64,000 nt of DNA from Thiosulfativibrio zosterae (lineage in GTDB: Bacteria > Pseudomonadota > Gammaproteobacteria > Thiomicrospirales > Thiomicrospiraceae), in assembly GCF_011398155.1 (NCBI RefSeq), contig NZ_AP021888.1, forward strand, positions 2,144,001 to 2,208,000, in the 5' to 3' direction. Below, one piece after another: positions 10,649 to 41,725 of this stretch (the stretch's first letter is position 1; every line of letters starts with the position of its first letter). Position numbers and translations under genes: made by a program. The notes beneath the pieces were generated by a model, which saw only the letters and a list, made by a program, of their open reading frames with translations, searched no databases and had not been told where the DNA came from.

Positions 10649-13129
10649 CTAGGCTGTTTTGACAACACCATGCAAAATGACATCATTCGCAACTTCTGAC
10701 GCTTGGCGCAACTTAAAGCTTTGTAAGCGCTCTTCAACCCCTTGCACGCTGGTAATAATACTTTCAGAAGTTTGCGCAACCTCTTCAACTAAGGCTGCAT
10801 TCTGCTGAGTAACATCATTGATTTGCTGCAAGGACTCACTCACTTCGTTAATGCCTGCGGTTTGTTGTTTTAGCGAATGTTGCATACCATCCATCATGCT
10901 GGATATTTCATCAATAGAAGACGCATTTTCTTCAAACGCCTGTTTAGTTAAACGGCTCAATTCTATGCCCTGTTTAACCTTTTCGATGCTGTGTTTGGTA
11001 AGGTGTTGAATACTGCTGGCGGCTTCTGCGGACTTACTGGCTAAACTGCGTACCTCTGAGGCAACCACCGCAAAACCTCTTCCTTGTTCACCCGCTCTAG
11101 CCGCCTCAACGGCAGCATTTAAAGCCAATAAATTGGTTTGAAATGCTATATCGTCGATCACCTGTGTAAAACTAGATATATCAACACTGGTTTTTTCAAT
11201 TTCTTGAATGGCTTCAAACATCCGGTTAACAATGTCGGCACCACTGACGGTATTCTTTTTGGCTTCTTGGCTTTTTTGATTCACAGAAGTGGCATTATCA
11301 GATGTTTTTTGAACCTGCTGAATCATCTGCTCCATATGATTTAAAGTTGACTGTATGGATATGGCCTGAGCCGAAACTCTTTGACTTAGATCTTGGTTAC
11401 CCATGCTGATTTCTTTAACACCATTCACCGCATGAGAAGAGGCAACTTGAACTTCTGAAAGCATACGGCTGATGTGGTTAGCCATAATATCCATATTTTC
11501 ACGCAGTTCATTTAACTTACCATCAAACTCCCCGTGAGTTTTATAGGCAAAGTTGCCTTGCTTAAAGTGCATTAAGGTATTTGATTTATCAACAATCGCT
11601 TCTTCTAACTTATGCAAAGCCTGATTTAAATAATCTTTTAGAAGTGTCAAATCTCCAGGCATTTCACATTCAATGCGTTGAGAGAAATCGCCTTGATTCA
11701 TGCCCATCATGACATCTTTCACTGAAGCAATGGCCAATTTTTGCACGGCAAATGCTGCATTTAAGCTGGCAACGACTTTACGATAATCGCCCGTGTAAAA
11801 ACTGGCATCTTCCACAAAATCTAATCGACCATCTCTTAAAGCTTGACTCATTTCTTGAATGGCTGACATCGTACTTCTTATTTGTAAAATGGAATCGTTA
11901 AACTCATTTTTAAGCGTGAGTAAGTCACCATGATACTCCTGCTGTAATGCAACATTAAAGTCGCCTGACGATAAACCTTGCCCTACCATTTTAAGTTCAT
12001 CCGTGAGCTGCTGAAACTCCGCCATCAGTACGTGAATACTAAAGCTCATATCGACCAACTCATTTTTACCCTTTAGTGGACGCCAAAGGCTTAAATTACC
12101 TGTTTCTGCAATTTCTGCAATTCGCAACCTTACTTTGCGTAAAGGACTTGTAATAGAAGCCACCAACATGGCGTTAAAAATAAGCATCATTAAAACAGCC
12201 ATGCCACTAATAACAACAACCCAGCGTGTTTGTTCTTTGGATAAAAGCGTTAAACTACTCAAATGATTTAAGGTTGCTTGGTTTGATGAAGTTGAAACGC
12301 TTTTCATGACTTCATTAGCGTCATTCACCAACCTGATTAGCGTTTGGTTATTTTCTTTAATAGTGACCAAATAATCTTTGATGTCTTTAAAAGACTCTTG
12401 AAAACCATCTCGACTGTCCGCTAATCTTTCCAGAACCTCAGTCAGGTCATCTTCACTTGATAATAACGACTCTATGACACGGATATCCTTTTCAGATTGG
12501 TCACCCAGCCCCTTTTGATTAAATTCTTTTAATACAGTAACATCACGACTGGTCACTAACTTTGCTACCTGTGACTGCGAATTTTTCACACGCTCTACGA
12601 GACTTTCAAGGACTGCCGTTAAAGAAGGATTATTAACTGTGACATTAAAATTCGTTAATGTCATGATTGATGTGTTTAACTTATGAATGGCAGGGTCGAT
12701 TCCATACTTTAAGGTACGAGAAATTTCACCTTGAAGGTAAACACTTGAGTTAATAGACTTTTTGTATTCCATCAACATCGTCTGCAAAGAGTCTATTTCT
12801 GCCTTTTGCTGATCATCCACCGTCAATTCAGCAATCTCTAAAGCCAATTTTTTTAACAAATCAATTGATTGATTAAAGTTTTGATTATTGTTAGAGGTAC
12901 TCTCCAACACATATTCATTAGCATTTTGAATGGTCTGTATCAACATCCTTTGCAAATCCGCTAACTTCATCGTTTGATTCTGTTGTATTTGCTGAATTTC
13001 TAAGGTTTTAGATTTCACTTCCGCCAAAGACCACCAAGCAACATAAGCAATTGCAATCAAAAACGTTAATGAAAATAACGTGTTAATAAAAAGACGCAAG
13101 TTAATGGTCAAATAATTGAGCAATTTCAT
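10649..13129 (-). CDS. Methyl-accepting chemotaxis protein with large periplasmic domain and poly-HAMP linker
   Basis: This chemoreceptor signals to CheA/CheW from the inner membrane. The 826-residue protein has a first membrane segment near residues 13-36, a helical periplasmic sensor of about 265 residues, a second segment near 305-325 ('[19 protein letters not shown]'), then a HAMP followed by several HAMP-like repeats ('[20 protein letters not shown]', '[20 protein letters not shown]'). The C-terminal signalling hairpin contains '[20 protein letters not shown]'. I prefer the ATG at 13129; an in-frame GTG five codons earlier is possible. No ligand can be named. No CheW-binding pentapeptide is evident at the end, and the tail '[12 protein letters not shown]' is not a standard CheR tether. 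Confidence 0.92.
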
Positions 13130-13144
13130 TATGGTCACACTCAC

Positions 13145-13429
13145 AGATTAAAATTTGAGCGAGAATAATAACTTTGCAAACAAATACTTATATTAAAGTT
13201 TAATTAAAAATGCGTACATTTTTTGTCACAATTCAGCGAAAATTTACCCAGGCCTGGTTAAAACACGCTCTAAATTGGCGCCATTTCTATAATTTATTTT
13301 TGTATTTTCTGGATAACATCATGCTGCAAAAGGATAAGGAGCAATTTGAACGCACCCCTGAAAATACAAGCATTCCTGTTATTCTATATTTGGCTGGGAA
13401 AGTCTCTTTACATGGTTTAGAACGCGGAG
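13145..13429. other. Intergenic stretch between the chemoreceptor and the MntA-like gene
   Basis: This AT-rich region holds the upstream sequence of the chemoreceptor gene and one full copy of the dispersed palindrome (13248-13259). A 95-codon open frame on the plus strand crosses it and runs into the 3' end of the nucleotidyltransferase gene; I do not believe it is a gene. I see no RNA gene or clear promoter. Confidence 0.5.
13248..13259. repeat. Dispersed palindrome CCAGGCCTGGTT
   Basis: Site 4 of 12 and the only intergenic one. It has the full CCAGGCCTGG core, TTTAC on the left and TTAAAAC on the right, so its A/T flanks resemble those of the genic copies. Confidence 0.75.
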
Positions 13430-13807
13430 TTAATGATGGGATTCAACAGTTAGTCGATAATCAGCGCGGTCAAAAAACGGACAACCAACCCGATTAATAT
13501 GGTCAATTAAATCTTGATTTTCAATCTGGTCAAACCAAGAAAGATCAACTTGATTGAGAAAGTCTAACTCATCAATTTGATTAGCTATTTCAGCCAAAAG
13601 TGAAAGCTGTTGTTGCTGAGGGTCGAATGTAAATAAGGTTAAATCAATATCAGAACCTTTTTTAAAAGTCCCTTTGGCACGTGAACCGTAAATCACAGCC
13701 TTTTGAATCTCTGGATGCGCCCACAAAACTTGCTGTATTGAATGGATAGTTGATGCCTTCAGCCCAAAGGCATCGGGCAACTCCGTTTTTTTTAATATTG
13801 CCGTCAT
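13430..13807 (-). CDS. MntA-like minimal nucleotidyltransferase (antitoxin of a HEPN/MNT pair)
   Basis: This 125-residue protein belongs to the polymerase-beta-like minimal nucleotidyltransferases. The signature GSx10DxD is complete: Gly41-Ser42 in 'YGSRAKG' and Asp53/Asp55 in 'GSDIDLTLF'; Asp88 in 'QVDLSWF' is a good third carboxylate. In characterised MntA-HepT pairs this protein blocks the HepT ribonuclease by adding AMP to a Tyr. The start overlaps the stop of the upstream HepT-like gene by four bases, as expected for such a module. The 3' end holds a short His-rich tail. An alternative is a housekeeping nucleotidyltransferase of the HI0073 type; the module is the same. Confidence 0.87.
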   Translation of the reverse strand: MTAILKKTELPDAFGLKASTIHSIQQVLWAHPEIQKAVIYGSRAKGTFKKGSDIDLTLFTFDPQQQQLSLLAEIANQIDELDFLNQVDLSWFDQIENQDLIDHINRVGCPFFDRADYRLTVESHH

Positions 13808-14223
13808 TTTGGCAACAACCTCATCAAATCATTTTTTAATTTTACAAAAGCAGGATAATAATTTTTTTGAATGGCTTTCAGAACTTGTAGCATAGTGGCT
13901 TCATTATAGGTATGCACTGTCAATTGTCGAGTTTTGACCATCTCTAACCAAAGTTTATCATTGTCAATTAATCCACGACTAAAGGCCATACGAAATGCAT
14001 CTCGACTGCCTTGAATAGAAATCTCCCCTTGATATTCATAGAAGTCTTTCAAAACATTCCAAGCAAGTTCATAGTTGTACTCAAAGGCTTGGATAACCCC
14101 CTGTTGTTCAAGTTCACTCAAAGGGCGAGCACTCACAATAACCATTGCTTTATCCAGCTGTTTTAAAGCATTTTGGTAATTATTAAAACGTTGAATCCAG
14201 CGAATATCTTGTTCTTGTTGCAT
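13804..14223 (-). CDS. HepT-like / HI0074-type nucleotidyltransferase substrate-binding protein (HEPN toxin)
   Basis: This is a 139-residue all-helical protein of the HI0074 / HEPN family. The segment 'FEYNYELAWNVLKDFYEYQG' is characteristic, followed by 'SRDAFRMAFSRGLID'. The HEPN active-site motif Rx4HxY is complete: Arg99, His104 and Tyr106 in 'TRQLTVHTYNE'. In studied HepT toxins Arg and His cleave RNA, and the Tyr is the target of AMP addition by MntA. The gene precedes the nucleotidyltransferase in the same operon with a four-base overlap. Toxicity is inferred from the family; some HI0074-type pairs have not been shown to be toxic. Confidence 0.87.
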   Translation of the reverse strand: MQQEQDIRWIQRFNNYQNALKQLDKAMVIVSARPLSELEQQGVIQAFEYNYELAWNVLKDFYEYQGEISIQGSRDAFRMAFSRGLIDNDKLWLEMVKTRQLTVHTYNEATMLQVLKAIQKNYYPAFVKLKNDLMRLLPK

Positions 14224-14526
14224 AACCTATACCCGTATTAAATTTTCACTATTAAGTTGCTCGAAACATTCCAACAAAGAATCCAAATAATCACCTCAAG
14301 CTTGCATCATCTTTTTTATTCAAGCGTTTATATCCAGAAGTTTTGATGAACTAAGGTAATTCAATTTCCGCATACATGCACGCTAGTTTACACAAAAAAA
14401 TGAAATTTGAGGCGTTTGAATAAAATGAAATCAGAATTGTAAATTCGTTGAATACTCGTAAACTATTGATTTTAAGATATTTTAGGCAATAAAAAAGCCC
14501 GTATGAAACGGGCTGATTTAAGAATA
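14224..14526. other. Intergenic stretch between the HepT-like gene and tRNA-Met
   Basis: About 300 AT-rich bases. It holds the upstream region of the HepT-like gene and, at the right end, a strong terminator for the tRNA-Met transcript. I see no RNA gene, palindrome copy or open frame worth calling. Confidence 0.5.
14491..14514 (-). terminator. Rho-independent terminator after tRNA-Met
   Basis: On the minus strand, arms AGCCCGT and ACGGGCT close a five-base loop and are followed by a run of T. It lies about 13 bases past the tRNA 3' end. Confidence 0.85.
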
Positions 14527-24622: not shown

Positions 24623-25393
24623 TTATCGAATTCGGTTATAAGGGCTATATTGTTGTGACGCAGGGGCTGGTTGTTGTCGAGCAGGCGCGGCTGGCTTTTG
24701 GCTGGCACTATGAGACTTCTTGTTCACCAATATAATCACTCGGCGATTCAAAGAGCGACCGTAAGGTGAATTATTGGGTGCGACCGCTTCATTGTCCCCT
24801 TTACCTTCGATGGTAATCAGCGTTTTATCAACCCCCATATAAATAAAGGTTCTGGCAACTGTTGCCGCTCTGGACGCAGAGAGTTCCCAGTTAGATGGAA
24901 ATTGGAAGTTTTCTATGGGAATACTGTCGGTATAACCCGTAATGGTAATTTTTTGATCACGACCACTGAGCGTTTCGCCCAATTTCTCTAACTGCTCACG
25001 CGTTTTTTCGCTGATATTGGCGCGCCCACTTTCAAAGAAACTATCTGAATGCAGGGTAATTTTTGTAAATTCTTCGGTGTCTTCAATTTCTATGTCTTTA
25101 GGATTCACCCCTTGCATGGCATCGGCAATTTCTTCAGTGCTGACTGGCGGCTTGGTTTCTTCAACAGGGGATTCAACAACTGACTCTGGAGCACCCTCTT
25201 TGAGTTCAACCACATTTTTACCCGCGGTTTCACCCACCAAAGCATCCACAAAAGCTTGACGCTTACTGGGCTCAACTATCGAAGTTAACCACATGACCAA
25301 GAAGAAGACCATTAAAACGGTCATTAAGTCGGCAAGGGCTATTTCCCATGCACCGCCTTCTTCACCATGTTCTTCATGCTTTCTTTTTGACAT
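24623..25393 (-). CDS. motB: MotB-type stator protein (OmpA-like peptidoglycan-binding domain)
   Basis: MotB anchors the stator to peptidoglycan and forms the ion path with MotA. The 256-residue protein has one membrane helix with the conserved ion-binding Asp22 ('WEIALADLMTVLMVFFLVMWL'), a Ser/Glu/Pro-rich linker, and an OmpA-like domain ('ITGYTDSIPIENFQFPSNWELS', with 'NRRVIILV'). A Pro/Gln/Ala-rich tail follows. The Asp sits six residues after the Trp, as in canonical MotB. It follows the MotA gene closely on the same strand. This pair is distinct from the MotA/two-MotB set at 35058-37287. Confidence 0.9.
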   Translation of the reverse strand: MSKRKHEEHGEEGGAWEIALADLMTVLMVFFLVMWLTSIVEPSKRQAFVDALVGETAGKNVVELKEGAPESVVESPVEETKPPVSTEEIADAMQGVNPKDIEIEDTEEFTKITLHSDSFFESGRANISEKTREQLEKLGETLSGRDQKITITGYTDSIPIENFQFPSNWELSASRAATVARTFIYMGVDKTLITIEGKGDNEAVAPNNSPYGRSLNRRVIILVNKKSHSASQKPAAPARQQPAPASQQYSPYNRIR

Positions 25394-25413
25394 AAGGGGT
25401 TCCTTAGCAATGC

Positions 25414-26256
25414 TTAACGCATTTTATCGCGGGGAATTTCAAATTCTGGCGGCACGCGTTGGCGACCGATTTCACTGGCCAAACTTGGAGAAACACCATG
25501 CTGAAACGCAGTTAAATAAGCCGCGGCCATTTCATAGATGGAACGATCTTGGCGAATCATCACTTCCACCGCGTGCGTAAAGGGAGCAACCACCGCAAAT
25601 GCAAAGAAAATACCGGTCAGTGTTCCCACTAAGGCCGCACCAATCGACGAACCGATTTTTGCCACATCCATATCACCACTGAGCAGGTTCATCGTTAAAA
25701 TGACCCCCATAACGGCGGCAACTATCCCGAAACCTGGCAACAAATTGGCTAGCTTGCCGGTGGCTTTGGGCACTTCCATATTGGATTGAATAATATCGTC
25801 TATTTGAGACCCTAAATAGTTTTCAAAATTTAAGGATTGTGGCGGATTGAGTAACAGGTAACTGAAGTTGTCGACAATAAATTTGCGCAATTCTTTGTGT
25901 TTTAAGACCCTTGGATAGCGATTAAAAATTTGGCTTCCCTCAGGATTAACGATGTGAGATTCTAAAGACAACATACCGTCTTTTCTGGCAACACGACCCA
26001 ATTCATCTAATAAGGCCAAGGTTTCTTGATACATTTTGCCATCCACACGACCACCGGCAAAAAATCGCCCAATGTAAGTCAAGGTTTTAAGCCAAATATA
26101 AACTGGTGTAGAGCCCAGAAAAACCCCCAAGCCTATGCCCAAAATAATAATCAACTCAGCCGGATGCCACAATGAAAGCAGCGTACCGCCTTCCATAAGG
26201 AATCCGCCAAAAAAGCTGGCGAGAATAACAATAATGGCAACAGGTTTTGAAAACAT
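25414..26256 (-). CDS. motA: MotA-type stator protein
   Basis: MotA subunits ring the MotB dimer and turn the flagellar rotor using ion flow. The 280-residue protein has four membrane segments: two near the N-terminus ('VAIIVILASFFGGFLMEGG', 'PAELIIILGIGLGVFLGS') and two after a cytoplasmic loop ('LLPGFGIVAAVMGVILTM', 'AALVGTLTGIFFAFAVVAPF'). Residue pattern and length suit the longer proton-type (E. coli MotA / LafT) branch; ion choice is an inference. No other flagellar genes are in the window. Confidence 0.9.
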   Translation of the reverse strand: MFSKPVAIIVILASFFGGFLMEGGTLLSLWHPAELIIILGIGLGVFLGSTPVYIWLKTLTYIGRFFAGGRVDGKMYQETLALLDELGRVARKDGMLSLESHIVNPEGSQIFNRYPRVLKHKELRKFIVDNFSYLLLNPPQSLNFENYLGSQIDDIIQSNMEVPKATGKLANLLPGFGIVAAVMGVILTMNLLSGDMDVAKIGSSIGAALVGTLTGIFFAFAVVAPFTHAVEVMIRQDRSIYEMAAAYLTAFQHGVSPSLASEIGRQRVPPEFEIPRDKMR

Positions 26257-33278: not shown

Positions 33279-35051
33279 ATGAACACTGAAAAGCATGGAT
33301 TGTGGAGTAAAGCCTCCATTAAAACGCTCAGCATACTTTTGTTATCGATGATGATTATGGCAGGTATCTTTTTTACCAGCGCCTTTCTCATTATTCATTC
33401 TCAAGTCGAATCGATAGAAGTTTTCTGGCAAAACTACCTGGCACAAAATCAGTTACAGCAAGACCTTAAGCTACAAGAAATGACTGGCTATTTGGCTCAG
33501 ATTAAACAACTGACCTTAATATTCATCGTGGCAGTGTTAATGGCGGTGGGTGCTTTCTTTGCACTGATGTACGCTACCTTAATCGGAAAAATTGTACGCC
33601 CCTTAAAATGCTTACAAAAAGGCATTACCGAAGTATCCACTTCTAATGATTTTTCAAGAAGCCTGCCCATACGCTATCAAGATGAAGTTGGTCAGGCCAT
33701 TGCTAATTTCAATCAACTCACTCAAAACTTAAAATCGATATTTGACCAAACCAATGCAGGATTAGAAAAGGTGGCCAAGGGAGAGTTTGACCAGACCATC
33801 AATGTTCAGGTCGGTGGTGATTTATTAACCCTTAAAAATAATGTTAATGCTTCTATTCAGAGCGTTGCTACCACCATGCACTCTTTAGAGGATATCGCCA
33901 ATGCCATTGCTGCGGGCGATTTTTCTGCGCGCTTAAACCCAGAGGTAAAAGGCGACATTAAACATAAAATTGATTTTGCTATGTCCTCAATTGAAACGAT
34001 TATTGTGCAAACTAACCAAGTCATGAAACAAGTTTCTGTCGCTGACTATCGTCACCGTATCGATGCCAAAGCAAATGGACAATTGGCAGATTTAAAAGAC
34101 TATATTAACCATGCTTTAGACGCTTTATGTGTGGGTATCGATGCCTTGAATGGTGCGATAGGCAATCTTGCCAAAGGGAATTTAACCTATCAAATTCAAA
34201 CGGCCTGTAAAGGCGAAATGGCAACCTTACGCAACAACTTAAACCACAGCACCGAGCAACTCAATCATGCAATGCAAACCGTGTTAGAAACCGCAAATTT
34301 GGTGTCCAGCGGTATTGAATTTATCTCAGAGGGTAATCTTGCCCTAGCACATCGCACTCAAAATCAAGCCGCCTCGATTGAATCAACTGCCAGTGCCATT
34401 GAGCAAATGACCAGTAGCGTAGAGCAAGCGGCAGACCATGCACTCAAAGCAAATCACTTAACCCAAGAGGCACTTTCTTTAACGCTTCAAGGCAGAGAAG
34501 TGATGAATCTATCGGTTGCCTCTATGGATAAAATTCAATCTTCCAGTGTGCGCATCAGTGACATTGTTGGACTCATTGATAGCATTGCCTTTCAAACCAA
34601 CTTATTGGCATTGAATGCTGCTGTTGAAGCGGCCAGAGCCGGTGAACATGGCAGAGGCTTTGCCGTAGTGGCGGGAGAAGTGCGTAATCTTGCCAGCAAA
34701 TCATCCGATGCGGCACAGGATATTCGTCATTTAATAGACCAAGTCGTTCATCAAGTGAATCAAGGCGCATTGCAACTCAATAACACGAATGAGGCATTTG
34801 AACGCATTAACCAAAGTATTCACACGGTGAATGAAATCATGACCGAAATTTCTACCAGCACATCCGAACAGGCATCTGGTATTAGAGAACTCAATAATGC
34901 CATTAATGAACTAGACGATGGCATCCAACAAAACAGCATCTTAGTGACAGAAACCACTGATAACTCTAACAACCTTAAAGACCAGTCAGTCAAGTTATTA
35001 GGCGAAGTGTCACGCTTTAAAGTAAAAGCCCTACTTGCTCAAGCAGCTTAA
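33279..35051 (+). CDS. Methyl-accepting chemotaxis protein with minimal periplasmic loop and poly-HAMP linker
   Basis: This is a 590-residue chemoreceptor. Two membrane segments (about 15-40 and 68-90) are separated by only about 28 residues, so there is no normal periplasmic ligand domain. A HAMP domain ('[17 protein letters not shown]') and further HAMP-like repeats follow ('[20 protein letters not shown]', '[19 protein letters not shown]'). The signalling tip is '[20 protein letters not shown]'. It may sense membrane or internal signals. A good ribosome site (TAGGAG) precedes the ATG. It converges on the MotB-MotB-MotA set with a six-base gap, which may be meaningful. Confidence 0.92.
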
Positions 35052-35057
35052 ATTAGG

Positions 35058-35729
35058 CTAGCGAGTCTTTTCGAAAGTCGCCGTAATTAAAATCTCAATA
35101 CGGCGATTTTTGGCCTTGCCTTCTGGCGAATCATTGTCTACCAATGGACGATATTCGCCATAACCCGCCACCCCAAACAATTCTTTATCCAAAGTACTGG
35201 ATTCATACAATAGTCGCATCACCTGCTCTGCACGCAAAGTACTTAAAAACCAATTGTTTCTTAAGCCAGAAAAAGGATTAATCGGATCATTGTCGGTGTG
35301 TCCTGCAATGTTGACTTCCGCGCGCCACTGCAAATTTTCTTGGGATACATGCTTGCGGACTTCTCTGGGCAAAATACCCAAATCTAATTTAAAAATACTT
35401 AAATCACTCAGTGCCTTACCCAATTGCTTCAATTGATTTTGTAACTGCACTGAAGGCGTTAACCCGCCTTTTTCAAAGGCTTGATCATCTGCAATTAAGA
35501 TTAAAATACCATTAGAGTTTCGCTCTACCTTTAAAAAACTTTCCTCGCTGGTTTCTTTGAGCAACTGCGCATAAGAACCATCCAATTGCAAATCTGTAAA
35601 CTTTTGAACCCTAGAAATCTCGCCTTTGTTCAGAACAATCATCAAAATAAAAAAGGTGATTAAAAGCGTCACTACATCCCCAAAAGTAAGCAACCAGACT
35701 GACTTGGCTCTATCGGTAGATTGGCTCAT
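35058..35729 (-). CDS. MotB-like protein with conserved ion-binding Asp
   Basis: This is a 223-residue MotB-family protein: one N-terminal membrane helix with Trp12 and Asp18 ('VWLLTFGDVVTLLITFFILM'), the position of the proton-binding Asp in MotB, then a periplasmic linker and an OmpA-like domain ('IAGHTDNDPINPFSGLRNNW', 'NRRIEILI'). It is the last gene of a motA-motB'-motB run, starting four bases inside the preceding gene. It would supply the ion path in a stator with the MotA-like and Ser-bearing MotB-like proteins next door. The target could be flagella or another motor. Confidence 0.88.
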   Translation of the reverse strand: MSQSTDRAKSVWLLTFGDVVTLLITFFILMIVLNKGEISRVQKFTDLQLDGSYAQLLKETSEESFLKVERNSNGILILIADDQAFEKGGLTPSVQLQNQLKQLGKALSDLSIFKLDLGILPREVRKHVSQENLQWRAEVNIAGHTDNDPINPFSGLRNNWFLSTLRAEQVMRLLYESSTLDKELFGVAGYGEYRPLVDNDSPEGKAKNRRIEILITATFEKTR

Positions 35730-36454
35730 GACGCACTTCGCTTCGCCAAAACCTGTGGCACCAAATAGATTTCAACACGGCGATTCAGCGCATCCGTTGT
35801 ATCTTCCACCAAGGGATAAAAACTGCCATAACCCGCAATCGCAAAAAAGTGCTTAGGCAAGCCGGTGTAAATGCGTAATAAATCCATGACCGCATAGGCT
35901 CGATAGGTACTTAATTCTATGTTATTGGTAAAAAAAGCGGTTTTTGCCAAGGGTTGAGAATCCGTATGCCCTTCTACCCGAATGGTAATGACAAATTCAT
36001 AACCGCTCGCTTCAATTTGTTTAACCAGTTTAGCGTGGCGGGTTGGAAAAGATTCAAGCTCTATATGTTTAATCAGGGTTGCAACTTCAGACATATAAGG
36101 CACAAATCGAGGATTGAGTTTGGCTCTGGCGGACTCAAACAAAGAAGCCTCTTTAAATAAGCTTGGATCAAAGGATAGCTTAACCCCTTTAGACAAGGTA
36201 TTCTCCACCGCTAACCAGGGCATGGTTTTTTGCTCTTCTAGAACTGTTTTATAGAGAAAGTGGACCAGTTTTTGATGGTTACGCTTAACCGTAGAACCTT
36301 CTAAATCTATTAGTGAAATAGTGAGAATAAAAAAGGCTAACAAAGAAGTAAACAAAGAAACAAACACAATTTGCCAGGTGCGATGACGACGCGTTGCCGC
36401 TTTTGCTATGGCAACTTCTTCTAATTCCATCATTACTTGTCTGGCTGATTGCAT
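35726..36454 (-). CDS. MotB-like protein with Ser in place of the ion-binding Asp
   Basis: This is a 242-residue MotB-family protein with a 24-residue charged cytosolic N-terminus, one membrane helix ('WQIVFVSLFTSLLAFFILTIS') and an OmpA-like domain ('RVEGHTDSQPLAKTAFFTNN', 'NRRVEIYLV'). Counting from the conserved Trp27, the residue six positions on is Ser33, where the other two MotB proteins of the window have Asp. The peptidoglycan-binding residues look intact. Alone it should not conduct protons in the standard way, so I infer that it pairs with the Asp-bearing neighbour. It lies between the MotA-like gene (eight-base gap) and that neighbour (four-base overlap). Confidence 0.85.
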   Translation of the reverse strand: MQSARQVMMELEEVAIAKAATRRHRTWQIVFVSLFTSLLAFFILTISLIDLEGSTVKRNHQKLVHFLYKTVLEEQKTMPWLAVENTLSKGVKLSFDPSLFKEASLFESARAKLNPRFVPYMSEVATLIKHIELESFPTRHAKLVKQIEASGYEFVITIRVEGHTDSQPLAKTAFFTNNIELSTYRAYAVMDLLRIYTGLPKHFFAIAGYGSFYPLVEDTTDALNRRVEIYLVPQVLAKRSAS

Positions 36455-36462
36455 GATTCCTC

Positions 36463-37287
36463 CTAGTGCATCGACTGATCAAGCCGTTGCTTAGTCAAAT
36501 CATTGACAAATACCATGAGCATTTCTCGCAGCATAATCGGCGACTCTTCATGCTTCAAGCCAATGATACCTTCAATCAAAATCTGGTTTTTTAATACCTC
36601 TGCATCCGACAAGACTTTAAGTTTTCCAGCGGTAGGAATAAACAAGAAGTTTGAGAATAACACGCCGTAAAAAGTGGTGACCAAGGCTAAACCCATGCCT
36701 TGCAATAGGGCACCGAGCATATCTTGCCCTTGCCCATCCACCACCACGGCATCTTGCGCCACTTGAGTGGTCATCATCATAATCAACCCCATAACGGTTC
36801 CCATCATCCCAAAGGCTGGGGCATAAGACGCCATGTTATTGAAAACATCTTGGCAAGTTAGATGACGCATACGCATAGCATTGAGGCTTTGCTCAAGGCT
36901 TAAGCGCAAAGACTTTTCATCGCGGTAGATCATCAAATTGGTAATCCCAAAACGCAAAAATTTATCATCAATGAAATCGATTTCTTTTTCCAAACCCAGC
37001 ACGCCTTTTTGCTGTGCGATATGACTGAGGTCGATGATTTGCTCAATCGCTAATTGTGGAGAAGCCGTTTCTTGTGAAAAAATTTTGACTATGCTTTTGA
37101 AAAAACAACCGAATTGACCCAAAGGGTAATTGATGAGCGTGGCGGCAAAAGTGCCGCCCAGAACAACCAGCAAACCTTGCCAGTTAAAGAAAGCTGAGAG
37201 GATTTTTCCTGAGTTAAAGTCAATCATACTCAGGATGAGAATAATCATCCCTAATATGGCGCCGAGAATCGTTGCTACTTTACTCAT
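36463..37287 (-). CDS. MotA/PomA-like stator protein of the two-MotB cluster
   Basis: This is a 274-residue protein with the MotA plan: 'ATILGAILGMIILILSMID', 'FFNWQGLLVVLGGTFAATLI', a cytoplasmic loop with 'IYRDEKSLRLSLEQSL', then 'YAPAFGMMGTVMGLIMMMTT' and 'LGALLQGMGLALVTTFYGVL'. The Ala-Pro-Ala-Phe-Gly-Met-Met-Gly-Thr run is typical of PomA/MotA. It is quite different from the MotA encoded at 25414-26256. It leads a three-gene operon with two MotB-like genes. Ion type cannot be fixed. It follows plsC by about five bases. Confidence 0.88.
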   Translation of the reverse strand: MSKVATILGAILGMIILILSMIDFNSGKILSAFFNWQGLLVVLGGTFAATLINYPLGQFGCFFKSIVKIFSQETASPQLAIEQIIDLSHIAQQKGVLGLEKEIDFIDDKFLRFGITNLMIYRDEKSLRLSLEQSLNAMRMRHLTCQDVFNNMASYAPAFGMMGTVMGLIMMMTTQVAQDAVVVDGQGQDMLGALLQGMGLALVTTFYGVLFSNFLFIPTAGKLKVLSDAEVLKNQILIEGIIGLKHEESPIMLREMLMVFVNDLTKQRLDQSMH

Positions 37288-37292
37288 TTAAA

Positions 37293-38045
37293 TTAAGGGT
37301 TTGTGGGCACCTCCTTCTCTTCGGAAGCCGCAGAACCTGCGGATAGATGCTGTTTAAACCAATCCTCTGTTAGTTGATTAAGTTGTGCCAGTGTCAAATT
37401 CGTGACATCAATCGCAGGACTGATAAACACTTCAACCACACCTGGCTTTTTAATAAAACTGTTTTTAGGCCAACACTCTCCAGCGTTGTGTGCCACTAAG
37501 TAAACCGGGGCTTGCGCTTTCAGGGCTAACATCGCCCCACCCGCATTGATTTTGCCCAGTTCACCAGCGGGCATTCGAGTCCCTTCTGGGAAAATCACCA
37601 CCCAAATGCCTTCTGCTAAGCGGGCTTGGCCTTCGCTCAAAACCTGCTTCATTGCCTGACGCCCCGCATTGCGATCAATCGCAATGGGATACATCATCGA
37701 CATTCCCCAGCCAAAAAATGGGATTTTGAGCAATTCTTTCTTCAAAACAAATGCTTGGCGAGGGAAAATCACCTGGGTCGCAAAAGTCTCCCAGGCGGAC
37801 TCATGTCTAGCAAGGACTAAGCCAGCTTGAGTTTTATCAATATTTTCCGCACCATAAACTTTATATGAGACCCCACAAGTCCAACGCACCCAAACGACTA
37901 TAAATCTAGCCCAAAGATGCATAAATTGATAACGAACCTTGTGAGAAAAAGGCCATAAGAAAAGGCCTATGACAGAGAAAAACAACAAAGACACCACCTG
38001 ACCGATGGCAAAGACAACTGATCGCAAAAAATACCAAGCCTTCAT
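37293..38045 (-). CDS. plsC: 1-acyl-sn-glycerol-3-phosphate acyltransferase
   Basis: PlsC adds the second acyl chain to lysophosphatidic acid at the inner membrane. The 250-residue protein has an N-terminal membrane segment ('VVSLLFFSVIGLFLWPF'). The catalytic motif reads 'RHESAWETFA', His81 and Glu86, so it is HX4E rather than the classic HX4D, a variant seen in part of the family. The substrate motif is 'FPEGTRMPAG'. It overlaps gmhB by four bases, in the conserved glyQ-glyS-gmhB-plsC order. Confidence 0.92.
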   Translation of the reverse strand: MKAWYFLRSVVFAIGQVVSLLFFSVIGLFLWPFSHKVRYQFMHLWARFIVVWVRWTCGVSYKVYGAENIDKTQAGLVLARHESAWETFATQVIFPRQAFVLKKELLKIPFFGWGMSMMYPIAIDRNAGRQAMKQVLSEGQARLAEGIWVVIFPEGTRMPAGELGKINAGGAMLALKAQAPVYLVAHNAGECWPKNSFIKKPGVVEVFISPAIDVTNLTLAQLNQLTEDWFKQHLSAGSAASEEKEVPTNP

Positions 38046-38614
38046 GACAAAATATCCTCTACCGCAGCTAAGAGATTGTCATACACAGCCACACCTGCCA
38101 GCACCGCTTGGGTTTTAGCGTCTTGCTTAGCTAAAATGCCTGCGCCCTTGCCAGTTTTAACAAACAGGGGCACCATGCCTTTTAATTGAGCAACAGCAAC
38201 ATCATGCAAGGTATCACCCACCATAGGAAACCCCTGCAAACTACCTCCAAAACGATTTTCGATGGCTTGCAGCATACCGGGCAAAGGTTTACGACACACA
38301 GAATTATCGTCCGCTAAATAGGGCGAGTAATTTATCCAGTCCACCTTAGCCGCTTCACCGCCAGCAGCCATCAATAACTTTTGCAGTTTTTGGTGCATTA
38401 AACTCAGGGTATAACGGTCGTAATAGCCACGTTTTATGCCAGACTGATTGGTTGCAATCGCCACCAACCAACCGGCCTGTTTTAGCTTAACAATGGCTTC
38501 AATCGAACCTGGCTCTGGATGCCATTCATCTGGATGCTTAATGTAAGCATCCGAGTCTTGATTAATGACACCATCGCGATCCAGTACAATGATTTTTTGA
38601 TTAGAATTTAACAC
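38042..38614 (-). CDS. gmhB: GmhB, heptose 1,7-bisphosphate 7-phosphatase
   Basis: GmhB removes the 7-phosphate in ADP-heptose synthesis for the LPS core. The 190-residue HAD-superfamily protein shows 'IIVLDRDGVINQDSDAYIKH' with the nucleophile Asp in DRDGV, 'IATNQSGIKRGYY', and 'MVGDTLHDVAVA'. The Zn-binding loop of E. coli GmhB (three Cys and a His) is largely missing: the matching stretch 'YSPYLADDNSVCRKPLPGML' keeps one Cys. The enzyme is probably a Zn-independent variant; a related HAD phosphatase role is possible. It lies between glyS and plsC. Confidence 0.9.
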   Translation of the reverse strand: MLNSNQKIIVLDRDGVINQDSDAYIKHPDEWHPEPGSIEAIVKLKQAGWLVAIATNQSGIKRGYYDRYTLSLMHQKLQKLLMAAGGEAAKVDWINYSPYLADDNSVCRKPLPGMLQAIENRFGGSLQGFPMVGDTLHDVAVAQLKGMVPLFVKTGKGAGILAKQDAKTQAVLAGVAVYDNLLAAVEDILS

Positions 38615-38645
38615 CAGTTTTTGCTACGCTCTTCTTAAACTATTC

Positions 38646-40724
38646 TTAAGCACTTTGTAAACGAGAAATATCGGCAATCGCCATAAACAATTGATAAATC
38701 TGGTTAAGTAATGCCAAACGATTATTCTTAACCGCTTCATCGTCTGCCATAACCATTACATCTTCAAAGAAAGCATCCACTGGCTGACGAATTTTCGCTA
38801 ATTCTGTCAGCGCTGCAGTGTAATCACGCCCTGCAATCAGCTCACTGACACTCTCACGCAAATTATCCAGCATTTGCCACAGGGCTTCTTCTGCAGGATT
38901 GTCAAACAGCTTAGGATTGACCGTTTCAGGCAAATCACCACTGACTTTTTTCAGTAAATTTGAAATGCGTTTGTTCGCAGAGCTGAGGGCTTCAGCGGCG
39001 TCCATTTTAGAAAACTGCACCACCGCTTCCAAACGCTTGTCAAAGTCTAAGGGGTGCGCAGGTTCGCAAACGCGAACGGCTTCAAACTCTTCAGCAGAAA
39101 CCCCTTGATCAGCATAATAAGCCTTTAAACGACTGATGATAAATCCGTAGATATCATTCACTAAGGCTTCAGTTTGCGTCACTTCAGGGTGCAACTCTAA
39201 GCTGAACTGAATCAACAAACGCAAATCCAAGTCTAAGCCGTTTTCAATGATGATGCGCATCAAGCCTAAGGCCGCACGACGTAAGGCAAAAGGATCTTTG
39301 TCTCCGGTTGGAATTTGCCCAACCCCGTAAATACCCGTAATGGTATCTAATTTATCTGCAATCGCTAAGGCTTGAGAAACTGCTGAAGCCGGTAAAGCAT
39401 CACCTGAAAAACGCGGTTGATACTGTTCGTCAATGGCCGCAGCAACCAATGCATCTTCTTTTTGTTCTAGCGCATAATAACGCCCCATCACGCCTTGTAA
39501 TTCTGGGAATTCACCCACCATCTCACTCATTAAGTCGGCTTTTGACAAACGCGCTGCACGAGAGGCAATTTCTGGCGCAACGCCTAATGGCTTAGCAATC
39601 TTAACCGTCAGCGTTTCTAAGCGCTCAACCTTATCAAATAAAGTGCCTAATTTTTGCTGGAAAACCACTGTTTTTAAGCGGGGTAAGAAATCCTCTAAGC
39701 CATGTTTGCGGTCTTGATCCCAGAAGAACTTAGCATCTGACAAACGCGGACGAATCACGCGTTCGTTACCAGACTTAACAGACTCTGGATTTTTGCTGTT
39801 AATATTTGAAATGGTAATAAACTTTGGCATCAACTTGCCATTAGCATCCAAAATATGGAAGTACTTTTGATGGCCTTTCATCGCAGAAATCAAGGCTTCA
39901 GAAGGTACGGATAAAAACACTTCATCAAAGTCACCCATGACCGCTTGCGGCCACTCATTGAGCGCTGTGACTTCTTCAAGCAAGTCTTCATCAATTTCTG
40001 CTTTACCCCAAACAGACGCAGCCACCTCATTAACCTGCTTGCGAATCATCTCAGAACGCTCAGCAAAGTTGGCTTTTACATAGCCTTTTTCACCCAAAAG
40101 TGCCTCATAATCACCAGGCCTGGTTATTTTCAGGGCTTCTGGCGCATGAAAACGGTGTCCATAAGTGACATCAGAAGTTTCATTGCCAAGAATCGTCGCA
40201 GGCACAAGGGTTTCATCCAACAACATCACCGCCCAATGCACAGGACGCACGAACTCAACCTCTGAACTGCCCCAACGCATACGCTTAGGAATTGGCAATT
40301 TTGCTAAAGATTGATTAACGATGTCTGGCAATAAAGCTGCCACCGGTTGACCTTTTTCAGCTTGGTAGTAAACCATCCAAACGCCTTTATCGGTATCAAT
40401 CTCTGATAATTCCGCTGTGCTGACACCACAGCCACGCGCAAAGCCTTCAAGGGCTTTGGTGGCTTTGCCTTCGGCATCAAAGGCTGATTTTTTGGCAGGG
40501 CCTTTTTTTTCAATGGTTTTATCCGCTTGCTGAGCTTGCAACTCTTGGATGCGCACCGCTAAACGACGCGGCGAGGCAAACAAAGAAACTTCACCATAGT
40601 TCAGCTCCGCTGCTTTTAAACCGGCTTCAATACCAGCACCAAAGGCTTCAGATAATTTTTTTAAAGCTTTAGGGGGTAACTCTTCGGTTCCAATTTCAAC
40701 TAAAAAATCGTGGACTTGGCTCAT
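38646..40724 (-). CDS. glyS: Glycyl-tRNA synthetase beta subunit
   Basis: GlyS is the tRNA-binding subunit of the bacterial alpha2-beta2 glycyl-tRNA synthetase. The 692-residue length is standard. It begins with '[20 protein letters not shown]', contains 'RRLAVRI', '[13 protein letters not shown]' and '[20 protein letters not shown]', and ends in a DALR-type anticodon-binding helical domain. Its start overlaps the glyQ stop by four bases, securing equal expression of the two subunits. A full copy of the dispersed palindrome lies in it. Confidence 0.97.
40113..40125. repeat. Dispersed palindrome ACCAGGCCTGGTT
   Basis: Site 8 of 12, in glyS. It has the full 12-base palindrome followed by ATTTTC. 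On the coding strand it reads Thr-Arg-Pro-Gly, the third of the three frames. Confidence 0.75.
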
Positions 40725-41659
40725 GCTTGTGCCTCTTCTATCGCATTGGTTGTCTGTTTATTTTTAACCAGAGGGAAACCTAAGGTTTCGCGCCCTTCGT
40801 AATAAGCTTCGGCTATTTGTCTTGCCATGGTGCGCACCCGCCCAATAAAACGCGCGCGCTCTGTCACCGAAATGGCATGACGAGCGTCTAACAAGTTAAA
40901 GGCATGAGAGGCTTTAAGCACTTGCTCGTAGGCAGGCAAAGGAAGCTTATCCGCAACCAACTTGGCAAAAACCTGCTCACACTCGTCAAAGGTGCGGAAC
41001 AAAATCGTGGTGTCGGCTTTTTCAAAGTTATAGGTCGACATTTCCACTTCGTTTTGGTGAAACACATCGCCATAGGTGACCTTACCTTCTGGCCCATTCA
41101 CCCAAGTCAAATCATAAACCGAATTGACGCCTTGTAAATACATGGCAATACGCTCTAAACCGTAAGTAATCTCACCGGTGACAGGACGACACTCTAAGCC
41201 ACCGACCTGTTGAAAATAGGTAAACTGAGTCACTTCCATGCCGTTCATCCAGACTTCCCAACCTAAGCCCCAAGCACCCAGCGTCGGCGATTCCCAGTTA
41301 TCTTCCACAAAACGAATATCGTGCTCTAGCGGATCAATGCCCATCATTTTCAAAGAGCCCAGATAGAGGTCTTGAATATTATCTGGCGAAGGCTTTAACA
41401 TCACTTGAAACTGATAATAATGCTGCATACGATTGGGGTTTTCACCATAACGACCATCCGTTGGACGGCGACAGGGTTGCACATAAGCTGCACGCCAAGG
41501 CTCTGGACCTATGGCTCTTAAAAAAGTGGAGGGATGAAAAGTCCCCGCGCCCATTTCGTTGTCATAAGGCTGCATAATCACGCAACCTTGCTCTGCCCAA
41601 TAGGCTTGCAGGGTTTGAATTAAGCCCTGAAATGTTGAAATATCTGTTGCCGCGTTCAT
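40721..41659 (-). CDS. glyQ: Glycyl-tRNA synthetase alpha subunit
   Basis: GlyQ is the catalytic class II subunit that forms Gly-adenylate. The protein starts '[18 protein letters not shown]' and contains '[20 protein letters not shown]', read with '[15 protein letters not shown]', '[16 protein letters not shown]' and '[18 protein letters not shown]'. The frame is open 20 codons further upstream, but the ATG at 41659 has an AGGA ribosome site and the normal N-terminus, giving 312 residues. It is divergent from the tusA-like gene with 66 bases between, which must hold both promoters. Confidence 0.96.
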
Positions 41660-41725
41660 TGACACCGATTTCCTATGTGTTTTTTGATAAAATTGCCGCA
41701 AATTATAACCAATAAGCACCGACTC

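Follow-up and report, generated by a model that had tools for sequence, protein, structure and literature searches.

We conclude that a three-gene cassette, motA-motB'-motB, in the window (the whole stretch of 64,000 nucleotides analyzed here) probably encodes one obligate 5:2 ion-driven motor, MotA5-MotB-MotB', with a heterodimeric axle and one ion site, as judged from sequence comparison. Known flagellar stators are MotA5-MotB2 complexes, in which the same Asp-bearing B subunit is present twice. The case rests on conservation of the gene set, a neutral residue at the ion site of the middle gene, purifying selection on a product that still has its helix and anchor motifs, the obligate pairing of the two MotBs, and the flagellar-operon context of the cassette in Desulfobacterota. 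We put at roughly even the chance that the cassette represents a natural class of 5:2 rotary motors whose axle is heterodimeric and binds ions at one site only, distributed over at least three phyla and serving as the flagellar stator in Desulfobacterota.

The cassette and its ion site

The relevant features of the window are as follows.

24623-26256, minus strand: separate conventional motA-motB pair, MotB with Asp22
35058-35729, minus strand: motB, the last gene of the cassette (223 aa), Asp18-bearing, with an OmpA-type domain
35726-36454, minus strand: motB', the middle gene (242 aa), a MotB-like axle subunit with an OmpA-type periplasmic domain
36356-36358, minus strand: codon 33 of motB' (TCT, Ser), position of the lost ion-binding Asp
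36463-37287, minus strand: motA (274 aa, from the ORF reading), a four-helix wheel subunit, MotP/PomA-like, with PDB matches to MotA/PomA
37293-38045, minus strand: plsC, its end separated from motA by 5 bases
37293-41719, minus strand: plsC, gmhB, glyS, and glyQ, co-directional genes upstream of the cassette

The ORF coordinates bear out the tight coupling described in an earlier note on this DNA, with 8 bases between motA and motB' and a 4-base overlap of motB' with motB. The motA product matches MotA_ExbB of Pfam (PF01618, E 3.7e-20); MotP is its top NCBIfam model, yet under the cut-off. In the residue table it conserves Pro157, Thr164, Thr204-Thr205, and Glu100 and has Gln92 at the place of the rotor-facing Arg of other MotAs. 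Both B subunits keep an OmpA-type domain over the Pfam cut-off, as had been claimed: MotB' matches OmpA (E 8.9e-7) with no match to MotB_plug, and the last-gene MotB matches both MotB_plug (E 3.4e-8) and OmpA (E 3.6e-10). The periplasmic domains of MotB, PomB, and MotS are the best PDB matches of the AlphaFold2 model of MotB' (mean pLDDT 90) and are also matched by that of MotB (mean pLDDT 86). Six residues after the helix Trp, the last gene has Asp18 (W12-LLTFG-D18), the middle gene Ser33 (W27-QIVFV-S33), and the separate MotB at 24623-25393 Asp22 (W16-EIALA-D22), exactly the three residues that the earlier note had read.

The ion site was counted in one alignment of 202 B subunits, including cassette proteins from Thiomicrospiraceae, Ca. 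Marinimicrobia, and Desulfobacterota as well as single MotBs. The last gene carries Asp in all 81 sequences (34/34 Thiomicrospiraceae, 26/26 Marinimicrobia, 21/21 Desulfobacterota), as do the single MotBs (33/33). Among 80 distinct middle-gene sequences, 65 have a neutral residue there (Ser, Ala, Gly, or Thr); by clade, the site is S11 A10 G9 T1 D2 in Thiomicrospiraceae, S13 D13 in Marinimicrobia, and G15 S6 in Desulfobacterota. These counts do not represent independent events: all 13 Asp cases of Marinimicrobia belong to a single clade. In the first family set the site of MotB' was S, A, T, or G in 27/29 and D in 2/29, and that of the last gene D in 27/27. Pairing of an Asp with a neutral residue is thus the rule in homologous three-gene sets, where the earlier note had proposed to look for it. 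Asp in both MotBs, with Ser as a local mutation, would have spoken against the note's idea of an asymmetric stator; the neutral state proved to be conserved across three phyla. What did not survive is any special role of Ser: an Asp-bearing MotB is paired with an Asp-less one, and in the latter the site may be S, A, G, or T, all of them small and uncharged.

Two other readings of Ser33 were discarded. It is not a local mutation, because so many middle genes are neutral here, and the same conservation rules out sequencing error. Ser as an ion ligand is ruled out by Ala and Gly, which are equally frequent at the site.

We infer heterodimer assembly, a single-site mechanism, a step size, and a load as follows. 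The MotA5 ring would enclose one MotB (with Asp) and one MotB' (with a small neutral residue), both with periplasmic domains able to bind peptidoglycan. The ion would be carried by MotB alone, not by MotB'. Since placing MotB and MotB' in one axle leaves a single site, the ring would advance once per ion, by 72 degrees, so that five steps and 5 ions would complete a turn instead of 36-degree steps with 10 ions; the motor may in this way give up rate to gain another gearing or to suit another load. The accepted scheme has a symmetric axle, whose two Asp sites take turns and produce 36-degree steps, ten per turn (PMC9389320). A point against our reading is that the published PomB-D24N mutation abolishes function, although both axle subunits are mutant there (PMC6677748).

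Distribution and load

In a search of 57 related genomes, MotB' orthologues were found in 29 of the 36 same-family genomes, the window's own included, and every complete locus carries motA-motB'-motB in the same order. A second collection supplied the named carriers Hydrogenovibrio, Thiomicrorhabdus, Thiomicrospira, and Sulfurivirga. At 25 of the 27 family loci that hold motA, the cassette comes after plsC at the end of a glyQ-glyS-(gmhB)-plsC run and is therefore an old resident of the family. In a class-wide sample, full-length MotB' matches (>300 bits) were confined to Thiomicrospiraceae, the others covering mostly the OmpA part. As a marker, PF13677 was rejected; it misses MotB' or detects it weakly. 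Reach beyond the family was assessed in one collection scan with the MotA alignment, which extended the same cassette to Ca. Neomarinimicrobiota and Desulfobacterota and so to three clades in all, and a search of one Desulfobacterota class found it in further genomes.

The Desulfobacterota cassette is very probably a flagellar stator. At 10 of 10 loci read it lies inside the flagellar operon, in the order flgD-(flgE)-motA-motB'-motB-(fliL)-(fliM)-(fliN)-(fliO)-fliP and then export genes, the operon genes having been assigned by BLAST and the bracketed ones missed at some loci (overlapping ORFs, contig ends). In two genomes (G445 and G529), both of which may be incomplete, the cassette holds the sole MotB_plug matches found.

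The load in Thiomicrospiraceae is uncertain, because there the cassette lies apart from flagellar genes, in the glyQ-glyS-gmhB-plsC operon, and its MotA has no FliG-facing Arg; it could drive the flagellum in particular circumstances or else act on some other load in the envelope. The Arg in question would correspond to Arg90, as placed in these MotAs by motif and spacing. It is replaced by K, Q, H, Y, L, or F, never R, in 37/37 Thiomicrospiraceae MotAs, against R in 24/24 Desulfobacterota cassettes, R in 26 and K in 2 of 28 from Marinimicrobia, and R in 32/32 single MotAs. That the Thiomicrospiraceae cassette powers a non-flagellar envelope machine concerns the load and is compatible with a heterodimeric axle; we regard it as a serious possibility, if somewhat short of probable. 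Its location far from the fla genes and the replaced Arg fit such a machine, as do the many cassette-bearing Marinimicrobia genomes without an FlhA match, although gaps in assembly may explain the missing genes. A flagellar role is weakened further by four near-complete flagellated relatives without the cassette and by three other stator-type pairs in the genome of the window: the pair at 24623-26256, a second at about 1025.6 kb of G000:C1, adjoining fliL-fliM, and a third at about 1971.8 kb. Against a non-flagellar load, however, FlhA is present in every cassette-bearing Thiomicrospiraceae genome and a complete FlhA-less genome lacks the cassette, the equivalent of Glu98 is kept in 37/37 Thiomicrospiraceae MotAs (and in nearly all MotAs overall), and the Desulfobacterota relatives sit in flagellar operons. 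Within Marinimicrobia, a comparison of MotB' state with FlhA gave no significant association (FlhA present in 3/16 Asp versus 8/15 Ser genomes, Fisher p 0.066) and is confounded by ancestry and assembly gaps.

Several observations concern other motor genes. A chemoreceptor (MCP) at 33279-35051 (plus strand) is convergent with the cassette, and a related MCP adjoins the cassette in several relatives. TolQRA and ExbB loci are present elsewhere in the genome. Tandem ORFs of about 155 aa with only a FliG_C-like match occur at L261:7759-8700(+), L262:7015-7960(-), and L260:7230-8174(+); in two Thiomicrospiraceae genomes such ORFs come directly after a PomA/PomB-like pair, and in the window's own genome they lie at about 667.2-668.2 kb of G000:C1, apart from motAB. 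Ca. Marinimicrobia possess a separate operon of motA, motB (with Asp), a FliF_C-like protein, and FliG (L255:8233-12538(-), L258:5256-9211(+), L252:1028-4978(+)), in which FliG has all three of its domains and, in L255 and L258, TPR proteins are encoded upstream. Of the 245 genomes of the Marinimicrobia phylum, 172 have a FliG_C match but only 46 an FlhA match, and the operon gives the appearance of a rotary motor, built of MotAB, FliF, and FliG, that has no flagellum. At L252 the cassette (12148-14358) lies about 7 kb from this operon on the same strand, and coordinates in two further Marinimicrobia genomes suggest the same arrangement.

Constraint on MotB' and history of the pair

The helix of MotB' keeps Trp-6, the aromatic residue at -2, Leu/Val+6, and Phe+9 (79/80), that is, the whole MotA-pore signature except for the Asp. 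Most Thiomicrospiraceae and Marinimicrobia also retain Thr+3, where Desulfobacterota have Leu, Ile, or Met. All 75 MotB' sequences with a recognized motif preserve the Asp and Arg that bind peptidoglycan, and NG86 omega is 0.01 to 0.11 in pairs with estimable dS, several dS values being saturated. Linker length showed no clear difference between MotB' and ordinary MotB. On the wheel side, MotA keeps the Pro and three Thr aligned with PomA T158, T185, and T186, which have ion-path roles (PMC6677748).

In a tree of 130 B subunits, MotB' of Thiomicrospiraceae and Marinimicrobia group together (99), as do their MotB in a clade of their own (99), so the duplication that gave the pair is older than the transfer of the cassette between phyla; the MotB' and MotB subtrees run parallel across the two groups. 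Desulfobacterota MotB' fall apart from the other MotB' in the quick tree, and an AU test does not reject a topology that unites all MotB' (p 0.295); an independent origin of the Asp-less MotB' of Desulfobacterota is possible. For the 15 Asp cases in the Thiomicrospiraceae/Marinimicrobia clade, two changes suffice on a MotB' tree from which the Asp column had been left out. Because both Asp groups are nested there among neutral relatives, the simplest reading is that the neutral state is ancestral and Asp was regained twice. The asymmetry noticed at the outset is therefore common in homologous sets and not indispensable. With Asp restored in MotB' of two lineages, a two-site axle would work as well, a point against the single-site reading.

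Two of the MotB' with regained Asp are of Thiomicrospira type (L045:7952-8695(-) and L048:8367-9110(+)) and are MotB-like around the Asp (FADVFTALLTFF), perhaps from gene conversion by the neighboring motB.

It is conceivable, though we think it unlikely, that a MotB(Asp) homodimer is the working axle and that units with admixed MotB' are slow or inactive, the MotB:MotB' ratio setting the number of conducting units. MotB alone has everything that a canonical axle needs, MotB' should have a dominant-negative effect, and the two genes are tightly coupled, as for a regulator. However, overlapping genes in fixed order in three phyla suggest that the stoichiometry is fixed and not a ratio that varies, MotB' is under strong constraint in its pore-helix signature and its residues for peptidoglycan binding, and a double regain of Asp would be odd in a protein meant to be inactive. 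Less probable still is an anchor or scaffold role, in which MotB' would stand beside MotA5-MotB2, outside the MotA ring, like MotY or FliL. The OmpA domain of MotB' is intact, anchoring needs no Asp, and a Hydrogenovibrio-like subset (L038, L040, L043, and L109) has lost even the Trp from the helix; yet Phe+9 and Leu/Val+6, typical of MotA-lodged helices, are kept, and Asp came back twice at exactly the same position, which is sensible only in an ion pathway. Although somewhat less conserved than MotA in family alignments, MotB' is hardly a decaying relic with Ser as a neutral loss, since nearly every cassette in the three phyla has an intact copy, omega is low where measurable, and the site is limited to small residues.

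Comparison with known motors

The heterodimeric motor that we propose appears to be a variant of the MotAB kind. Like MotAB, PomAB, and MotPS, the cassette has a MotA_ExbB-domain MotA of the MotA/PomA family with the ion-path Pro and Thr and has B subunits with one N-terminal helix and an OmpA-type peptidoglycan-binding domain, the conserved Asp residing in the last gene. Unlike them, it has two different B subunits, one Asp-less, in place of one Asp-bearing kind; a symmetric all-Asp axle is thus lacking wherever the middle gene is neutral, presuming that both B subunits share one axle. The class of wheel-and-axle machines also includes ExbBD and TolQR, whose B subunits are of ExbD/TolR type and not OmpA type. 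Zorya ZorAB resembles the cassette as a 5:2 motor with a peptidoglycan-binding periplasmic domain but differs in its one Asp-bearing ZorB, long cytoplasmic ZorA tail, and defense genes (PMC11890865). MotA, with 274 aa, scored E 0.009 against the ZorA model, far under the cut-off, and no zorC, zorD, or zorE neighbors were found in the window.

AglRQS of Myxococcus, which the earlier note took as the nearest parallel, likewise combines one MotA homologue with two MotB-like proteins (PMC9389320). AglQ and AglS both bear Asp, whereas the cassette has Ser33, and according to that paper it is not known if AglQ and AglS pair with each other or each with itself (PMC9389320). The neighbors of the cassette in the window (glyQ-glyS-gmhB-plsC, UNG, PNPOx, MCP) include no gliding genes, and its nearest homologues turned out to be the flagellar-operon stators of Desulfobacterota and the Marinimicrobia cassettes. 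Aquifex aeolicus has a motA-motB1-motB2 gene set, in which the N-terminal/transmembrane regions of the MotBs are 97% identical and one residue apart (Gly20/Ser20), and each MotB is functional separately as an E. coli chimera (PMC4525482). In contrast to these near-identical helices, those of MotB' and MotB differ at many positions, one being without Asp. The Aquifex case and the discussion of AglQ/S were all that we found in the open-access literature on Asp-less MotB partners, tandem motB genes, or stator heterodimers, and we found no description there of a stator like the one proposed.

How many ions pass per stator turn, and whether both axle sites need to alternate, is an open question in the field. 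A 2022 review called ten-fold symmetry "almost certain to be a universal feature" (PMC9389320). Because the regained-Asp lineages suggest that this scaffold can also house a working two-site axle, they would provide natural one-site/two-site pairs for comparison, and the Desulfobacterota cassettes, because they belong to the flagellar operon, are open to ordinary motility assays. If our reading is true, the ten-fold symmetry expected to be universal would be broken, and a natural one-site motor, predicted to use half as many ions and steps for each turn, would test the question directly.
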